64,000 nucleotides of DNA, from positions 620,001 to 684,000 of the forward strand of contig NZ_LWLN01000001.1 in the NCBI RefSeq assembly GCF_001953745.1. The letters run 5' to 3'. The stretch comes from Natrinema saccharevitans (GTDB taxonomy: Archaea; Halobacteriota; Halobacteria; Halobacteriales; Natrialbaceae). Under the pieces are notes generated by a model. It saw only the letters and a program-made list of their open reading frames with translations, was not told where the DNA came from and did no database searches. How positions within the stretch are numbered: position 1 is the first letter of the stretch; the number at the start of each line of letters is the position of its first letter. Of this stretch, positions 37,516 through 46,361 are shown piece by piece. A program made the position numbers and the translations under genes.

Positions 37516-39999
37516 TTACATCAGGTAGAACAGTGGGAACAGGAAGACCCAGACGATGTCGACGAAGTGCCAGTAGAGTCCGAAGGACTCGACGGGCGCG
37601 TGGTTCTCGAGGTAGGCATCGACCGAGACGACGCGGTAGATCATAAACAGCGCGACCAGGACGCCGAGGATGACGTGCAGGGCGTGGAGCCCGGTCGTCA
37701 CGAAGTACAACGAGTACTCGATTCCGCTGAACCAGTAGTGACCGTCGGCGAACTTGCTGCTGTACTCGAAGGCCTTGACGCCCATGAACACGAGGGCGAG
37801 CAGGACCGTCGCGCTCAGCGCGCCGAGCAGTCCCTTCTTGTTCCCGCGCTCGGCCATCACGTGTGCGAGGATGACCGTGAAACTCGAGGTCAGCAGGACG
37901 TAGGTGTTGAACAGGCCGGCGTTCGTGATGGCGTCGAGGTGCCAGGCGCCCCAGCCCATGTGGAGACGCATGAAGACGTACGCTCCGATTGCGGCACCGA
38001 AGACGACGACGTCCGAGGCCAGGAAGACCCAGACGCCCATCTTCTCGTTGCTGATGCCGCCGAACGGCCAGCGTTCGGCGACCGCCATCTCGGGCGCGTC
38101 GAACTGCTCGCGGCCGAACTGGAACAGCGAGATCCCGAGCAGTACCACGCCGAGGGCCACCAGAACCGGATAGATGATGTTCTGTGGGGGTGCCGAATCG
38201 AGCGTCACGAAACTACCGACATCGCTGGTGATGTGGGACTCGACGAACGAGAAGACGTACGGCGTAATGCCGCTGAGTCCGAGGAAGAACGTAAACGTCG
38301 CGACACCGATCCCGAGCGGCCAGATGCTGGCGTGGTCGGCGTGTTCCTCCTCGTGGCTCGTCGTCGCCACCCCGGTCGCTTCCTGTGCGACACCGCCGTC
38401 GGTCGCGGTCGGGGTGTCGTCGACGAACTCCAGGCGGCCGCTGGCGTAGCTGGGCCGGTCGGACCAGTTCTCGAGCGGCGGGGGCGACGGGATCGCCCAC
38501 TCCGCGGTCCGGGAGTAGGTCCACGGGTTATCGGGCGCGTCGGGGCCGGAGATCAAGCTCTTCCCGAGCGTGAAGAACATGATCAGGAACGAGGCCCCGA
38601 ACACGAACGCCCCGACGGTCGCCAGCTGGTGGTAGAGCTGTGCGCTCTCGCCGTAGTGGAAGACGCGGCGCGGCGTCTCCCAGGCCATGAACATCGGGAA
38701 GTACAGCAGGTTGAACCCGACGAAGTAGACCGCGAAGTTGAGCTTTCCGAGCCGCTCGGAGTACATCTTCCCGGAAATCTTCGGCCACCAGTAGTAGATA
38801 CCACCCATCAGGGCCGTGACGCCCGAGACCATCACGTAGTGGAAGTGGGCGACGACCCAGTAGGTGCCCCGGAACTCGTAGTCGAGCACGACGGCTCCGA
38901 GGAAGACCCCGGTGATGCCACCGAGGATGAACAACACGAGCGCGCCGAGCGAGAACAGGAACGGCGTCGTAAACCGAACGCGACCCTTGACCATCGTATA
39001 GATCAGCGCGAAGACCATCAGGTCGAAGGGTAACGAGATCCCGATCGTCGTCGCCATGAACAGGGTCTTGATCGGGAGGTTGATCGTCGACAGGAACATG
39101 TGGTGCATCCAGACGAGGAACGACTGCACGGCCACCAGTACCATCGCGATGATGACCCACTTCCGGCCGACGAGTCGTCGTCCGGTGAACGTCTGGAACG
39201 TCTCGAACATGATTCCCAGTGCCGGGAAGAAGACGATGTACACCTCCGGATGGCCGAAGAACCAGAAGATGTGCGCCCACAGCAGGCTCGAGCCCTGATC
39301 GGTCGCGAAGTACTGCGTGAGGAACAGCCGATCGACCGAGAGCAACAGCACGGCTGCAAGCAGTGCCGCGAACGCGAACAGCATCATCCAGGCGGTCAGC
39401 AGCCACGACCACGAGAACATCGGCATGTTCCACAGACCGAGCCCCTCTGCACGGGATCGGTGCATCGTGGTCAGGAAGTTCACCGTCCCGATCGTGATGG
39501 AGATACAGAACAAGACCAGGCCAAGGACCATCGCGTTACCGCCGGTCATCGCCTCCATCGCCGGGGTGTAGGTCGGCACGTTCAGCGGGGCGTACATCGT
39601 CCAGCCCCCGGAGAACGAGCCGCCCTGGAAGAACGAGATCCCCATGAGAACGCCCGAGAACAGGTAGAACCAGTAACTCAGCGCGTTCAGCCGGGGGAAC
39701 GCGAGGTCCTTCGCGCCGATCTGAAGCGGCACGAAGTAGTTCGCGAAGCCGCTCGCGATCGGCGACAGGAACCAGAAGACCATGATGAGTCCGTGTCCGG
39801 AGACGGACTGGTAGTACTGGTCGTTCGTCAGCAGTCCGGTGCCGCCCGTCTGCCACAGGTGGGCGCGAAACAGCAGCGCGAGGACGCCACCGAACAGCAG
39901 GAAGAACATCGCCGTCGTCAGATAGAGAATGCCGACGTCCTTGTGGTTGGTCGTGACCAGCCACCGCTTGATCGAGCGCTTCGGCGGGAGGTCACCCAT
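37516..39999 (-). CDS. coxAC: Cytochrome c oxidase subunit I-III fusion
   Basis: 827 residues. Residues 1 to about 590 form the 12-helix subunit I, with a heme-ligand His in SVSGHGLIMVFWFL, the HPEVY motif with Cu_B ligand and cross-linked Tyr (WFFGHPEVYIVFFP), the Cu_B His-His pair (VWMHHMFLS), the K-channel region, and AHFHYVMVSG with the heme a and a3 histidines. About residue 600 to the end is a subunit III-type domain (EKMGVWVFLASDVVVFGAAI, TTGLHALHVILGVLVALFMI, GLYWHFVDIVWVFLFPLFYL). It reduces O2 to water at the membrane. Such I-III fusions are known in archaea. It overlaps coxB by one base. Confidence 0.95.
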   Translation of the reverse strand: MGDLPPKRSIKRWLVTTNHKDVGILYLTTAMFFLLFGGVLALLFRAHLWQTGGTGLLTNDQYYQSVSGHGLIMVFWFLSPIASGFANYFVPLQIGAKDLAFPRLNALSYWFYLFSGVLMGISFFQGGSFSGGWTMYAPLNVPTYTPAMEAMTGGNAMVLGLVLFCISITIGTVNFLTTMHRSRAEGLGLWNMPMFSWSWLLTAWMMLFAFAALLAAVLLLSVDRLFLTQYFATDQGSSLLWAHIFWFFGHPEVYIVFFPALGIMFETFQTFTGRRLVGRKWVIIAMVLVAVQSFLVWMHHMFLSTINLPIKTLFMATTIGISLPFDLMVFALIYTMVKGRVRFTTPFLFSLGALVLFILGGITGVFLGAVVLDYEFRGTYWVVAHFHYVMVSGVTALMGGIYYWWPKISGKMYSERLGKLNFAVYFVGFNLLYFPMFMAWETPRRVFHYGESAQLYHQLATVGAFVFGASFLIMFFTLGKSLISGPDAPDNPWTYSRTAEWAIPSPPPLENWSDRPSYASGRLEFVDDTPTATDGGVAQEATGVATTSHEEEHADHASIWPLGIGVATFTFFLGLSGITPYVFSFVESHITSDVGSFVTLDSAPPQNIIYPVLVALGVVLLGISLFQFGREQFDAPEMAVAERWPFGGISNEKMGVWVFLASDVVVFGAAIGAYVFMRLHMGWGAWHLDAITNAGLFNTYVLLTSSFTVILAHVMAERGNKKGLLGALSATVLLALVFMGVKAFEYSSKFADGHYWFSGIEYSLYFVTTGLHALHVILGVLVALFMIYRVVSVDAYLENHAPVESFGLYWHFVDIVWVFLFPLFYLM

Positions 40000-41809: not shown

Positions 41810-42445
41810 ATGGCACAGCCACGAATCCTGATCCTCGGTGCGCCCGGGGCAGGGAAGGGCACCCAGAGCGCAAAGATCATCGAGGAGTTCGACGTCGATC
41901 ACATCACGACCGGCGACGCGCTGCGATCGAACAAGGAGATGGACATCTCCGACATGGACACCGAGTACGACACGCCCGGCGAGTACATGGATCAGGGCGA
42001 ACTCGTCCCCGACGACGTCGTCAACGCGATCGTCGACGAGGCGCTTTCCCAGGCCGACGGCTTCGTCCTCGACGGCTACCCGCGGAACCTCGAACAGGCC
42101 GAGGAACTCGAGGACATGACCGACCTCGACGTCGTCCTCTATCTCGACGTCGGCGAGGAGGAACTCGTCCACCGGCTGACCGGCCGCCGGCTCGACCCCG
42201 AGACGGGCGAAATCTATCACGTCGAGTACAACCCGCCGGAGGACCCCGAAGTGGAAGCACGGCTCGAGCAGCGCGACGACGACACCGAGGAAACGGTCCG
42301 CGAGCGACTGTCGGTCTTCCACGAGAACACGGAACCGGTCATCGAGTACTACGACGAGCAGGGCGACTTGGAGCGGATCGACGGCGAGCAGGCCCCCGAC
42401 GCGGTCTGGGCGGACGTCAAGTCGACGATCGAGGACGCGTCGTAG
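41810..42445 (+). CDS. adk: Adenylate kinase
   Basis: 211 residues ([20 protein letters not shown]). The P-loop GAPGAGKGT spans residues 10-18, the AMP-binding region is [11 protein letters not shown], the catalytic DGYPRN is present, and the LID ([20 protein letters not shown]) is the long zinc-less form. It catalyses ATP + AMP to 2 ADP. In archaea it commonly follows secY directly. Here 8 kb of cox and other genes separate them. Confidence 0.95.
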
Positions 42446-42563
42446 TCGTTTGCTCGAGGATCATCGACGGACGGCGATGACTTCCCCCTTAGGACCGTCG
42501 TATTCCGTCCGAAACGGCGCTTAGAACGGATCGTGATGCGACGCTGGCAGCGATTCGGAGTGG

Positions 42564-45212
42564 TTAGTTTTCGACACGAACCTGCTGGGTCTCGATATTG
42601 ACCACGTAGTCGTTCGAGGATTCTCCCGGATCGGGGAGATCCCCGACCTCGAACGTGATTTCCTTGTCAGTGATTTCGCGCTCGGCAATTAGACCGAATT
42701 TGTCTTTCAGTTCCCCGGCATCGTCAGCGGTGTAGTATTCGCCGCCGGTTTTGGTTGCAGTTTCCTTCAATAACTCTTCGTCGAGGTCGTTACCGAGACC
42801 GACCGTATAGATCGTGACGTCTTTGTCGATCGCATCGTCGACTGCCTCCTCGGTTGCACCATTTCCATAGCTGTTTTTACCGTCGCTCAGCAGAACCATG
42901 ACGCGTTCATTGTCGTTCGAACTACTGTACTGATCGAGGGCAGGTGACATTCCTGCTGCCATCTCCGTCCCCCCGTCTGCCTCGACCGAAACTGAACTCT
43001 TGACGCTCGAGAGGTCATAACTCAGGCTGTGTAAGGTCCGTCCGTTAGTGTCGAATTCGAACACGCCGGCACGATCGTCGTTCGACTCGTTTAATGCATT
43101 GATAAAGTCTTGTGTCGCATCGGCACGGATCTCTAGCGGATCGTTTCCAGTCGTTTCGAAGACCGTAACCTCACATCCGTTGCAGCTCTCGTTGGCAACT
43201 CGAACATCATCACTGTTGATGAAGCTAGTCGTTTCTCCTGGTTCGACGGTCGTGGTCGTACATCCCCCCCAGAACGAACACCTCTCAACCTCGATAGCGT
43301 ATTTCGAGTCGGGATCCACTGTTGCATCAGTATCCCACGACGTACTGAATGGTGGTTCTTCTCGTGTATCGGTCACGGTTCCGCTACGGTATACTGTGCC
43401 CATCGAACCGGAGCCGTCGAGGACGAAGGTCACGTCGAGCGGATCTCGAGCCTCTTCGATCGTGATGTCCTGATTCTCCTCCGGAATTGGGATGTCGGTT
43501 CGGAGTTTCCGATCGAAGTTGATCGTCACGTCGTCGTCGATAGTGGTCTCTCCAGCGACGATCGCCCCAGTGATCGTGGCGTCTTCCTCCAGAGTGAGTT
43601 CACTATCGGGTGCGTACACGACGCCGTCGAAAGCTGTCCCGTCGTCGAACGTGATCTCGGTAGCGCTCGTCCCGTACAGCCAGAAGTTCCCCTTCCGAGT
43701 ACCGGAGACCGAGACGCTCTTGTCGCCGCCGTCATCCGTAATTTCCATGTCGTCGGTATCAGTGTAAATGTACGCTTGGTTCTCACCCGTGACGGTCAGA
43801 CCCGAGAGCGTATCGTCTTCGAAGTCACCGACGCCGATATGAACGTCCCCGTCCGACGTATCGATTTCGTCGACGTCGAAATCGCTCGTGTAGTACCGGC
43901 CGGATTCGTCGATCGTGTCTCTCGTGCTGTCGAACTCGGTGACCATGTCACTGCCGACGTTGTCCCTGAGATAGCCCAGCGCACCGTCGTTGATCTCGTC
44001 GTCGATGCCCTCGTGCGTCTCGAACGGGCGGGACATGTTCGCCGCGATCACGTCGTCGGTTAGATGTGCGATCCACGTCTCGTTCCGTTTGTATTGGTCG
44101 TCATCGTCGTCGACGACGGCCGCTGTATTCGTTTTGAAGTTCGGATCCCAGACGTACGATATCGGATCGACCGCCGATTCGGCGGACGGATCGATCATTC
44201 CATTGAGAACCGGGTACCCCTCGATATCTGCATCGTCCTCGAGTTCCAATCCGTCTTCGACGGTGAACAGGTCGTCGGAGGTATTCGTCGTGTCGTTGGT
44301 GTACCCTGAAACCGCCAGGTTGGATTCGACGGTCCCGTCTTCGATGCTGTCGGCGGAGAGTCCGCCGTAGATCGTCGGCTCGATTCCCACGTGGTGGGCG
44401 AACGGATTGTTGCCGTCGATCGTCGCGATGACGGTTACCGTTTGGTCGTCTCGGTCGTGACAGACGAGATTTTGCTCGAAGCTCACGTCGGCATCGAAAT
44501 TACAATCGGTCGGCTTCGAGCGCGCGACCGTGTCGATATCGGTCGCGTCGAATTCGTCGCTCATGAACTCGTACCACCCGTCGTGATACTGCGTTCCCTC
44601 GACGGTGATTTCGACGTGGCTCACGAACTCGTCTTTGCTCGGGGTGTCGACCGACGGCCGTGACGAATCATACTGTGTCACGGTGTTCTCGCCCGAGCCG
44701 GCGTTCCCGCTGAGGCTCATGATAGAGAAGTCGATCCGACCGTAATCGCCGTCCTTGTAGTATCGGAGATCGGGCTCCGAGACGACGGTCGTTCCCCCGC
44801 CGTCGTTGCGCCAGATACCCCCGGCCTGATACCCGTACTCGGTGCCGGAATCGCCGCTCTGGCGCAGCGTCCCCATCTCAATCGAGTAATTCGAGAGTTC
44901 CTCGAACCCGTTCGAGCTATTGATGTGGATCGTACTCGAGTTGGAGATATTGTACTGCCCTTCCTCGAGATACACGGACCCTGTTGCGTCGGTCGTCAAC
45001 CCCGATAAGTCGTGATCGAACTGTTGGAGGGTCTGTCGTTCGCGCTCGTCCGTCGCCTGCGTCTGAATCGAATCGAGAGCCCCCATACCGACGGTGAACA
45101 CGAGTAGCGCGCCGACGAGGACGAATCCGATCAGAAGCACGATCGCGACTTGCGGACTCACTCCACGCTCCATCGATCGAGTACCGGATGGAGATCCACC
45201 GAGACGGGTCAT
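42564..45212 (-). CDS. Pilin-leader surface protein with beta-helix-like and VWA domains
   Basis: 882 residues. An N-terminal class III (type IV pilin) leader is MERG before VSPQVAIVLLIGFVLVGALL, cleavable by PibD after Gly17. The start could also be the inner ATG at 45173. A long Thr/Asn-rich region follows with many N-x-S/T sites. Residues about 440-570 look like a stacked beta domain (VHIGVGDFEDDTLSGLTV, FWLYGTSATEITFDDGTAF, GVVYAPDSELTLEEDATITG). A von Willebrand A domain covers about 590-850, with a complete MIDAS: DGSGS at 599-603, Thr749, Asp777. A four-Cys insertion lies at 605-690 (C645, C651, C677, C680). Codon GC is below its neighbours. It is probably a cell-surface adhesin or pseudopilin-associated protein. 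Confidence 0.85.
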   Translation of the reverse strand: MTRLGGSPSGTRSMERGVSPQVAIVLLIGFVLVGALLVFTVGMGALDSIQTQATDERERQTLQQFDHDLSGLTTDATGSVYLEEGQYNISNSSTIHINSSNGFEELSNYSIEMGTLRQSGDSGTEYGYQAGGIWRNDGGGTTVVSEPDLRYYKDGDYGRIDFSIMSLSGNAGSGENTVTQYDSSRPSVDTPSKDEFVSHVEITVEGTQYHDGWYEFMSDEFDATDIDTVARSKPTDCNFDADVSFEQNLVCHDRDDQTVTVIATIDGNNPFAHHVGIEPTIYGGLSADSIEDGTVESNLAVSGYTNDTTNTSDDLFTVEDGLELEDDADIEGYPVLNGMIDPSAESAVDPISYVWDPNFKTNTAAVVDDDDDQYKRNETWIAHLTDDVIAANMSRPFETHEGIDDEINDGALGYLRDNVGSDMVTEFDSTRDTIDESGRYYTSDFDVDEIDTSDGDVHIGVGDFEDDTLSGLTVTGENQAYIYTDTDDMEITDDGGDKSVSVSGTRKGNFWLYGTSATEITFDDGTAFDGVVYAPDSELTLEEDATITGAIVAGETTIDDDVTINFDRKLRTDIPIPEENQDITIEEARDPLDVTFVLDGSGSMGTVYRSGTVTDTREEPPFSTSWDTDATVDPDSKYAIEVERCSFWGGCTTTTVEPGETTSFINSDDVRVANESCNGCEVTVFETTGNDPLEIRADATQDFINALNESNDDRAGVFEFDTNGRTLHSLSYDLSSVKSSVSVEADGGTEMAAGMSPALDQYSSSNDNERVMVLLSDGKNSYGNGATEEAVDDAIDKDVTIYTVGLGNDLDEELLKETATKTGGEYYTADDAGELKDKFGLIAEREITDKEITFEVGDLPDPGESSNDYVVNIETQQVRVEN

Positions 45213-45235
45213 TCGTTCTTATATACGATGATACT

Positions 45236-45244
45236 GCTATAAAA
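45236..45244 (-). promoter_or_regulatory. TATA-like boxes of the VWA gene
   Basis: Minus-strand GTTTTATAG (45236-45244) about 27 bases before the ATG at 45212, with a second TATATAAG-like box around 45216-45226. The two would favour different starts (45212 leaderless, or 45173 with a leader). Confidence 0.4.
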
Positions 45245-45422
45245 CTGTGTGGATAGAAAGGTTAGAATATTGTAACGTGGGGCCCTGCAGACCTCGTTCT
45301 ACCGTGACTCATGTCAGAATACGGCCTATCATTGTTCTGTACGAGTGATTATTTTGAACGGAGTCGAGAACTGGAGACCGAAGAAAAACACTTGTATAGC
45401 CGACGTGCCCTAGCCCAAGCAG

Positions 45423-46361
45423 ATGACGCGTACAGCCGAAAAGATCGACGCCCTCGTCCGCGAGGATTCCTCGATGGCCGCGGCCCTTGAGGCCATCCGC
45501 GAGGCAGCCGACAGGAACGGCGGCGAGGTTCAGTGGGCCGACGTCAGCGACGACCTGACGAGCGGACAGTGGGGGCGATTGATCGAAAAAGGCGTTCTAG
45601 TCGACGGCGACGACGGGTTCGAGATCGCCGATCGCGAGGCCTTCGACCGGGCGCTCGACGGCGATGGCGACGGCGGGGGCGCGGCCGCCGACATCGATAT
45701 CGACGAGGAGGCATCGAGCTGGTCGCAGTGGGACAAACTCGCCGGCGTCGGTGCGTTGCTGTTGATGCCCGGCTACTGGTTCGACTCGATCCGCAACGTC
45801 GTCGGGAACACGCTCGATCTCGCCCTCGGTCCCCTCGACGCGGCGCTGCCGTTTTACGCCGTGATCCTCTCGGTTGCACTGATCACCGGCCTCTACTCCT
45901 CGTTGCTCCAGGCGAACCTGATGAACCCCGAGATCATGGGGAAGTACCAGGAACGGATGAAAGCCGTCCAGGAAGAGCAGAAGGAACTCCGACAGGAGAA
46001 AAAGGAGGCCGAGGAACGCGGCGCGAGCGAGGCCGAGATCGAGCGCCTCGAGAACGAAATCGAACGCGCGCGCGAAGAGCAGATGGAAGCCATGGCCGAC
46101 AACCTCGGGATGTTCAAAGAGCAGTTCCGTCCGATGGTCTGGATCATGCTCTTTACTATCCCGATGTTCCTGTGGATGTACTGGAAGATGTACGGCGGGA
46201 TCAGCGGCGAGATGGTCGTCATCCCGCTGGCCGGCGAGGTCTCGTGGGGTGACCGCTTGCAGGGCTTCATCCCGGTGTGGCTCTTCTGGTACTTCCTGTG
46301 TTCGATGGCCTGCAACCAACTCATCCGGAAGGCACTCGATATCGACATGTCTCCGTCGTGA
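45423..46361 (+). CDS. DUF106 family membrane protein (YidC/Oxa1/EMC3-like)
   Basis: 312 residues. An N-terminal cytoplasmic domain (1-95) resembles a winged helix (EVQWADVSDDLTSGQWGRLI). A membrane segment follows (LPFYAVILSVALITGLYSSL), then a long coiled coil (about 180-225, LRQEKKEAEERGASEAEIER) and two more membrane helices (FRPMVWIMLFTIPMFLWMYW and IPVWLFWYFLCSMACNQLIR). This is the archaeal Oxa1-superfamily layout, thought to act as a membrane protein insertase. In other archaea it lies between adk and cmk as here; the reversed VWA gene interrupts the link. Confidence 0.9.
   Translation: MTRTAEKIDALVREDSSMAAALEAIREAADRNGGEVQWADVSDDLTSGQWGRLIEKGVLVDGDDGFEIADREAFDRALDGDGDGGGAAADIDIDEEASSWSQWDKLAGVGALLLMPGYWFDSIRNVVGNTLDLALGPLDAALPFYAVILSVALITGLYSSLLQANLMNPEIMGKYQERMKAVQEEQKELRQEKKEAEERGASEAEIERLENEIERAREEQMEAMADNLGMFKEQFRPMVWIMLFTIPMFLWMYWKMYGGISGEMVVIPLAGEVSWGDRLQGFIPVWLFWYFLCSMACNQLIRKALDIDMSPS

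Follow-up and report, generated by a model that had tools for sequence, protein, structure and literature searches.

The analysed window, a 64,000-nucleotide stretch of the Natrinema saccharevitans genome, carries a gene for a large VWA-type, pilin-like surface protein between the adenylate kinase gene adk and the gene for an EMC3/TMCO1-like membrane protein (Table 1). A genome search found the VWA-type gene in a single copy, and the closest named relative of its product is encoded in the genome of Natrinema mahii (L004; the window protein itself is L001). Elsewhere in the window, cytochrome oxidase subunits I and III are fused into one protein of 827 aa (COX1 + COX3; 37516-39999, minus strand). 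Downstream of truB, a VapC-like PIN-domain protein is encoded (PF01850; 48649-49038, plus strand), which may belong to a toxin-antitoxin pair.

Table 1. Features of the VWA-type gene, its product and its chromosomal surroundings; positions are those of the window.
Feature	Position	Strand	Basis or remark
VWA-type pilin-like surface protein gene	42564..45212	-	882 aa + stop; intact ORF; 28 homologues
Predicted class III (prepilin) leader, residues 1-17	45162..45212	-	cleavage predicted after Gly17 (ERG/VSP)
Hydrophobic H-domain, residues 18-45	45078..45161	-	sequence; conserved in alignment
DUF7289 pilin-like module, residues 16-240	44493..45167	-	Pfam PF23960, E=2.1e-15
Cys237-Cys251 pair in DUF7289	44460..44504	-	nearly invariant (homologue alignment)
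DUF7305 beta-rich module, residues 421-572	43497..43952	-	Pfam PF23981, E=1e-26
First VWA strand with MIDAS DGSGS, residues 593-604	43401..43436	-	Pfam VWA positions 1-12
Hypervariable insert ("arm"), about residues 605-690	43143..43400	-	between Pfam VWA positions 12 and 13
Cysteine pair 1, Cys645/Cys651	43260..43280	-	only in subgroup L001, L004-L007
Cysteine pair 2, Cys677/Cys680	43173..43184	-	position common to Cys pair of the other homologue group
Rest of VWA domain, residues 689-837, with MIDAS Thr749 and Asp777	42702..43148	-	PF00092
C-terminal tail, residues 838-882	42567..42701	-	alignment
Variable slot	42445..45372	.	homology to L134/L135 ends at 42444, resumes at 45370-45373
Adenylate kinase (adk), slot boundary	41810..42445	+	PF00406, E=1.7e-44
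EMC3/TMCO1-like membrane protein (former DUF106), slot boundary	45423..46361	+	PF01956, E=8e-40; followed by cytidylate kinase and truB

Three Pfam domains were assigned to the protein. First, DUF7289 scored 57.4 bits and thus exceeded its gathering score of 27 bits. Second, DUF7305 reached 94.4 bits (gathering score 27 bits); it corresponds to the region that an earlier, sequence-only reading of this DNA had described as a beta-stack. Third, VWA was matched over residues 593-837 overall and also above its cut-off (E=2.6e-17). The combination of all three recurs in 21-22 of the 22 members of the homologue set. As had been claimed, the MIDAS is intact, with D599, S601, S603, T749 and D777 being invariant in an alignment of 22 sequences. 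In a profile search, i.e., at the sequence level, the window protein matched solved VWA structures, which supports a VWA fold. AlphaFold2 yielded no reliable model, with a pLDDT of 36.7 from an alignment of only two sequences, the window protein and one near-identical relative, and a pLDDT of 46.7 for the insert alone. The Cys237/Cys251 pair of DUF7289 had not been listed before. The middle of the protein had been called rich in glycosylation sites; ten N-X-S/T sequons are indeed present, but four of them fall at residues 88-108 within DUF7289.

The leader reads MTRLGGSPSGTRSMERG up to the predicted cut and VSPQVAIVLLIGFVLVGALL behind it, with ...SMERG directly upstream of the cut. This N-terminus fits the rule for archaeal prepilins, the substrates of PibD, which demands a charged residue at position -2, Gly, Ala or Ser at -1 and then an H-domain (PMC4371748). 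A prepilin site of the form [K/R/D/E/H][G/A/S] ahead of a hydrophobic stretch was present in 29/29 homologues (the script matched 26 of the 29, two of these misplaced, and the remainder were read by eye), in agreement with the pilin-type leader proposed earlier. The NCBIfam model arch_flag_Nterm gave 15.2 bits for the window protein, below its cut-off of 20, which is a threshold of the model rather than a defining biological feature. Since the relatives have a similar N-terminal extension, translation probably starts at M1 rather than at the internal MERG. One candidate prepilin peptidase is encoded in the genome.

A tight PilB3/PilC-type cluster is located at L074:2951-11717 (G000:C1, about 2062950-2071716) of the same genome. 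This operon comprises genes for a PilB3-type ATPase, a PilC-type membrane protein, DUF7287, DUF7288, DUF7266 and a DUF7289 paralogue, and these four DUF families look like the minor pilins that belong to a single pilus system of haloarchaea. Because its paralogue sits inside this operon, DUF7289 is best read as a pilin-type module. The VWA-type gene is solitary between adk and the EMC3-like gene and lies outside the pilus operon. The sequence-only reading had proposed a pilin-leader protein with a metal-dependent VWA adhesin, similar to bacterial tip proteins; the domains, the MIDAS, the leader and the DUF7289 paralogue in the PilB3/PilC-type operon speak for this proposal, while the location of the gene outside that operon speaks against it. 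By inference, this large VWA protein would itself become part of a pilus. Neither papers on DUF7289 nor a description of a VWA/DUF7289/DUF7305 protein family were found in the literature searched, which comprised papers available without subscription.

Alternatively, the protein could be anchored in the membrane as a surface receptor or binding protein, using a class III leader but never residing in a pilus, like the sugar-binding proteins of the Sulfolobus bindosome. The distance of the solitary gene from the pilus operon would agree with this, proteins other than pilins, bindosome subunits among them, are also cut by PibD (PMC4371748), and an extracellular part as large as this one (about 840 residues) could hardly be packed anywhere but at a tip. 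However, the DUF7289 module is common to a gene embedded in the PilB3/PilC-type operon, and pilus tips can hold large modular pilins (PMC8179133, PMC12607857). A receptor outside any pilus is therefore regarded as possible, but rather doubtful.

Positions 13-170 of the Pfam VWA profile align to residues 689-837, and therefore the DGSGS strand (positions 1-12) precedes an insert of about 85 residues, which is located exactly where it had been noticed before, right behind the MIDAS strand. The insert comprises 72-103 residues in most homologues. Only about 10 residues occupy the site in L020, L024, L027 and L028, where VWA was matched uninterrupted from position 1, and short inserts were found in L029 and L032. 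Since some orthologues have no insert or a short one, the insert is not needed for the basic function of the protein. The window subgroup and a larger second group have a common pattern of W..P, strand, turn, strand and VRV, often followed by C..C. Alignment of the inserts of the two groups by hhalign yielded a probability of 40%, compared to no more than 4.2% when the columns were shuffled 30 times; with this modest signal of homology, they probably represent one diverged beta domain. A search of solved structures gave no credible match to the insert. As a mobile domain in 392 genomes, it gave only weak matches outside its own family (E about 0.002-0.01), viral contigs contained no relative, and PADLOC reported no match.

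The window protein and its N. mahii homologue share about 95% identity outside the insert, but only 27-33% inside. Third-position identity at codons for the same residue was about 0.9 outside and about 0.35 inside the insert, and DNA similarity broke just past the SGSMG codons and resumed at GNDP. Within about 10 kb, the insert was the only block without DNA alignment between the window genome and its nearest relative. In another genus, L012 and L014 were 97% identical outside the insert compared to 43-45% inside, and the L014 insert shared 59% identity with that of the more distant L010 and 45% with that of L012. Among 18 close pairs from a comparison set with one genome per species, a low-identity block was observed at the insert in 9, exclusively elsewhere in 1 and not at all in 8. 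In the exceptional pair (L019/L023), the block corresponds to window residues 312-414, between DUF7289 and DUF7305, which suggests a second exchangeable segment.

An unconstrained loop that drifts under relaxed selection is unlikely as an explanation. The insert is the least conserved part of the protein, and some orthologues have a short version of it or none, as could be the case for a drifting loop, but drift would not remove synonymous identity within sharp borders, and the length range, the pattern and the even cysteine counts have been retained. Since synonymous identity is lost inside sharp borders, unlike under relaxed point mutation, the alignments indicate that the insert is hypervariable through replacement with divergent alleles and not through drift. 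Neither a second copy or donor copy nor silent copies of the insert were found in a search of its own genome, and the donors are therefore presumably other cells. The wholesale swap of a domain adjacent to the MIDAS is as expected for the part that decides what a cell sticks to.

All four cysteines that had been noticed in the insert (Cys645, Cys651, Cys677 and Cys680) are present. The number of insert cysteines is 0, 2 or 4 in 13, 13 and 3 homologues, respectively, and thus even in 29/29; a Poisson estimate for these even counts (1.4e-8), which treats related sequences as independent, was not relied on. The window protein, L006 and L007 have the full set, and the other 26 of the 29 do not. 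Pair 1 occurs without pair 2 in L004 and L005, while pair 2 occurs without pair 1 in L008-L016 and others. Because the pairs are even and occur independently, a local disulfide closing each hairpin is likely and a four-ligand zinc site is disfavoured. Thus, of the disulfide or zinc clasp suggested earlier, the disulfides are compatible with the data, while the zinc is not supported by them. In the inserts of L009-L016, the first hairpin turn often carries the N-glycosylation sequon RNTT, where the window group has Cys pair 1.

It is considered improbable that the protein is a mechanosensor associated with pili and no specific adhesin, its VWA domain and disulfides reacting to force in the way that has been proposed for PilY1 and CpaL. 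The set of VWA, MIDAS and cysteines does resemble that of PilY1, where a cysteine of the VWA domain influences surface sensing (PMC8806160), and that of CpaL; however, the cysteines are dispensable, with 13/29 homologues having none in the insert, and a conserved sensor does not predict insert replacement between close relatives. Even less probable is that the whole family has, as a fixed part of its structure, a zinc or disulfide clasp built from four cysteines: the four occur together here and in L006 and L007, but 13 homologues have a single pair, from either hairpin, 13 have no cysteine there, and a four-ligand site should not repeatedly lose half of its ligands. A zinc clasp was rejected on the basis that four conserved cysteines occur in only 3/29 homologues.

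Variation at this locus extends to the whole gene. Two Natrinema species (L134 and L135) encode an EMC3-like protein 97% identical to that in the window, and their DNA is about 91-94% similar to the window up to the adk stop codon and again from a point about 50 bases upstream of the EMC3-like gene. The slot between these points contains a DUF7289-DUF7305 gene of unrelated DNA. Other Natrinema species have either an empty slot or one that encodes a DUF7289-DUF7305 protein of 500 aa or a DUF7289 protein of 927 aa; in several Natrialbaceae genera, orthologues of the VWA-type protein occupy it, and one or two DUF7289-DUF7305 proteins of 500 aa often come next. In a survey of 29 Natrinema genomes, the neighbour of the EMC3-like gene was classed as VWA-type in 5, as a fragment of a VWA-type gene in 1, as DUF7289-DUF7305-like by tblastn in 20 and as the gene for the 927-aa DUF7289 protein in 1; it was absent in 1 and unclassified in 1. 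As judged by these alignments, the whole gene has been exchanged in the slot between close relatives. At G053:C1:1434063-1435130 (L031) in Natrinema, the VWA-type gene matched residues 42-407 only, in a 431-aa frame followed by another DUF7289-like frame, and possibly is a decayed or rearranged copy.

On this evidence, it is fairly probable that the window protein is a haloarchaeal modular pilin-like adhesin with a MIDAS-adjacent specificity arm that is diversified by recombination, and that its gene is exchanged as a whole in the slot. The prepilin peptidase would probably cut the class III leader, and the hydrophobic helix together with DUF7289 would form a pilin-type base, either at the tip of a type IV pilus or facing outward in the membrane. 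DUF7305 would act as a beta-rich stalk, and the VWA head would bind its ligand via the MIDAS metal ion. The insert would be a small beta domain adjoining the MIDAS, in which Cys-Cys pairs close the hairpins of some alleles, and would set or tune binding specificity. Its diversification would proceed through replacement by divergent alleles, in addition to the swapping of the whole gene in the slot. If true, a family of archaeal VWA adhesins would be named and DUF7289/DUF7305 would be linked to pili. Moreover, there would be a defined cassette whose exchange may control how haloarchaea recognise other cells, choose surfaces or adsorb viruses, all of which are poorly understood in this group.

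More speculatively, the adk/EMC3-like slot might be a dedicated surface-diversification locus of the Natrialbaceae, in which whole adhesins are exchanged between species and the MIDAS-adjacent cassette is swapped within the VWA type, serving partner recognition or virus escape. With such a slot, archaea would have their own counterpart of the pilus-tip adhesins that vary antigenically, with the variation arising by recombination between cells and not from silent genomic copies.

VWA tip pilins are already known from bacteria. With regard to domain architecture, the pilin module of the window protein is joined to a C-terminal VWA head as in PilB/TadG-like minor pilins, and, by analogy to the bacterial modular VWA pilins PilB and CpaL/TadG, this layout is not unique. 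The window protein may work like modular VWA minor pilins, with the likening of the pilin modules being one by analogy; it is not classed among them because its gene is not encoded with pilus machinery. PilB of Streptococcus sanguinis (PMC8179133) likewise has a class III leader, a pilin module and a VWA head with a metal-binding MIDAS, and arms protrude beside the MIDAS, one of them being a four-stranded sheet. PilB differs in being bacterial, in its small pilin module of another family and in having no DUF7305 stalk, and arm replacement is not among the features described in the available text. RrgA of Streptococcus pneumoniae (cited in PMC8179133) is also a VWA adhesin with arms around the MIDAS, but belongs to a sortase pilus of unrelated assembly. 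CpaL/TadG proteins of Tad pili share the N-terminal pilin-like module and the proposed tip position, and in CpaL of Caulobacter, a beta-rich insert splits the VWA domain after the MIDAS strand (PMC12607857). The sequence-only reading had set the insertion apart from standard VWA; among pilus-associated VWA domains it is not unusual, since the arms of PilB and RrgA and the split in CpaL are comparable. CpaL differs in being bacterial and part of the Tad pilus system, with a known surface-sensing phenotype, and its insert of two six-stranded barrels (about 180 residues) contrasts with the insert of about 85 residues here.

PilY1 of Pseudomonas aeruginosa is not known to be a pilin-leader protein. 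It is similar in being a pilus-tip-associated VWA protein with a MIDAS and cysteines, and within the PAO1 clade its VWA domain varies, but it has a separate C-terminal domain and no archaeal DUF7289/DUF7305 (PMC8806160). Among archaeal systems, UpsA of Sulfolobus is a pilin in which a poorly conserved region decides species-specific aggregation (PMC7064770); however, it is a pilus-forming subunit without VWA or MIDAS, and the variable region lies within the pilin itself. VARTIG of Thermococcales is a secreted archaeal protein with one domain that is hypervariable via interspecies recombination (PMC8416519), but it consists of Ig domains in a multi-gene module and has no VWA. In the available part of an archaeal pilus census (PMC4858521), archaeal VWA proteins are discussed as regulators of the ArnB type rather than as carriers of a pilin leader, and DUF2341 proteins are proposed as adhesins. 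Compared to these systems, the hypervariable insert and the exchangeable gene slot are new here, on a known type of design.
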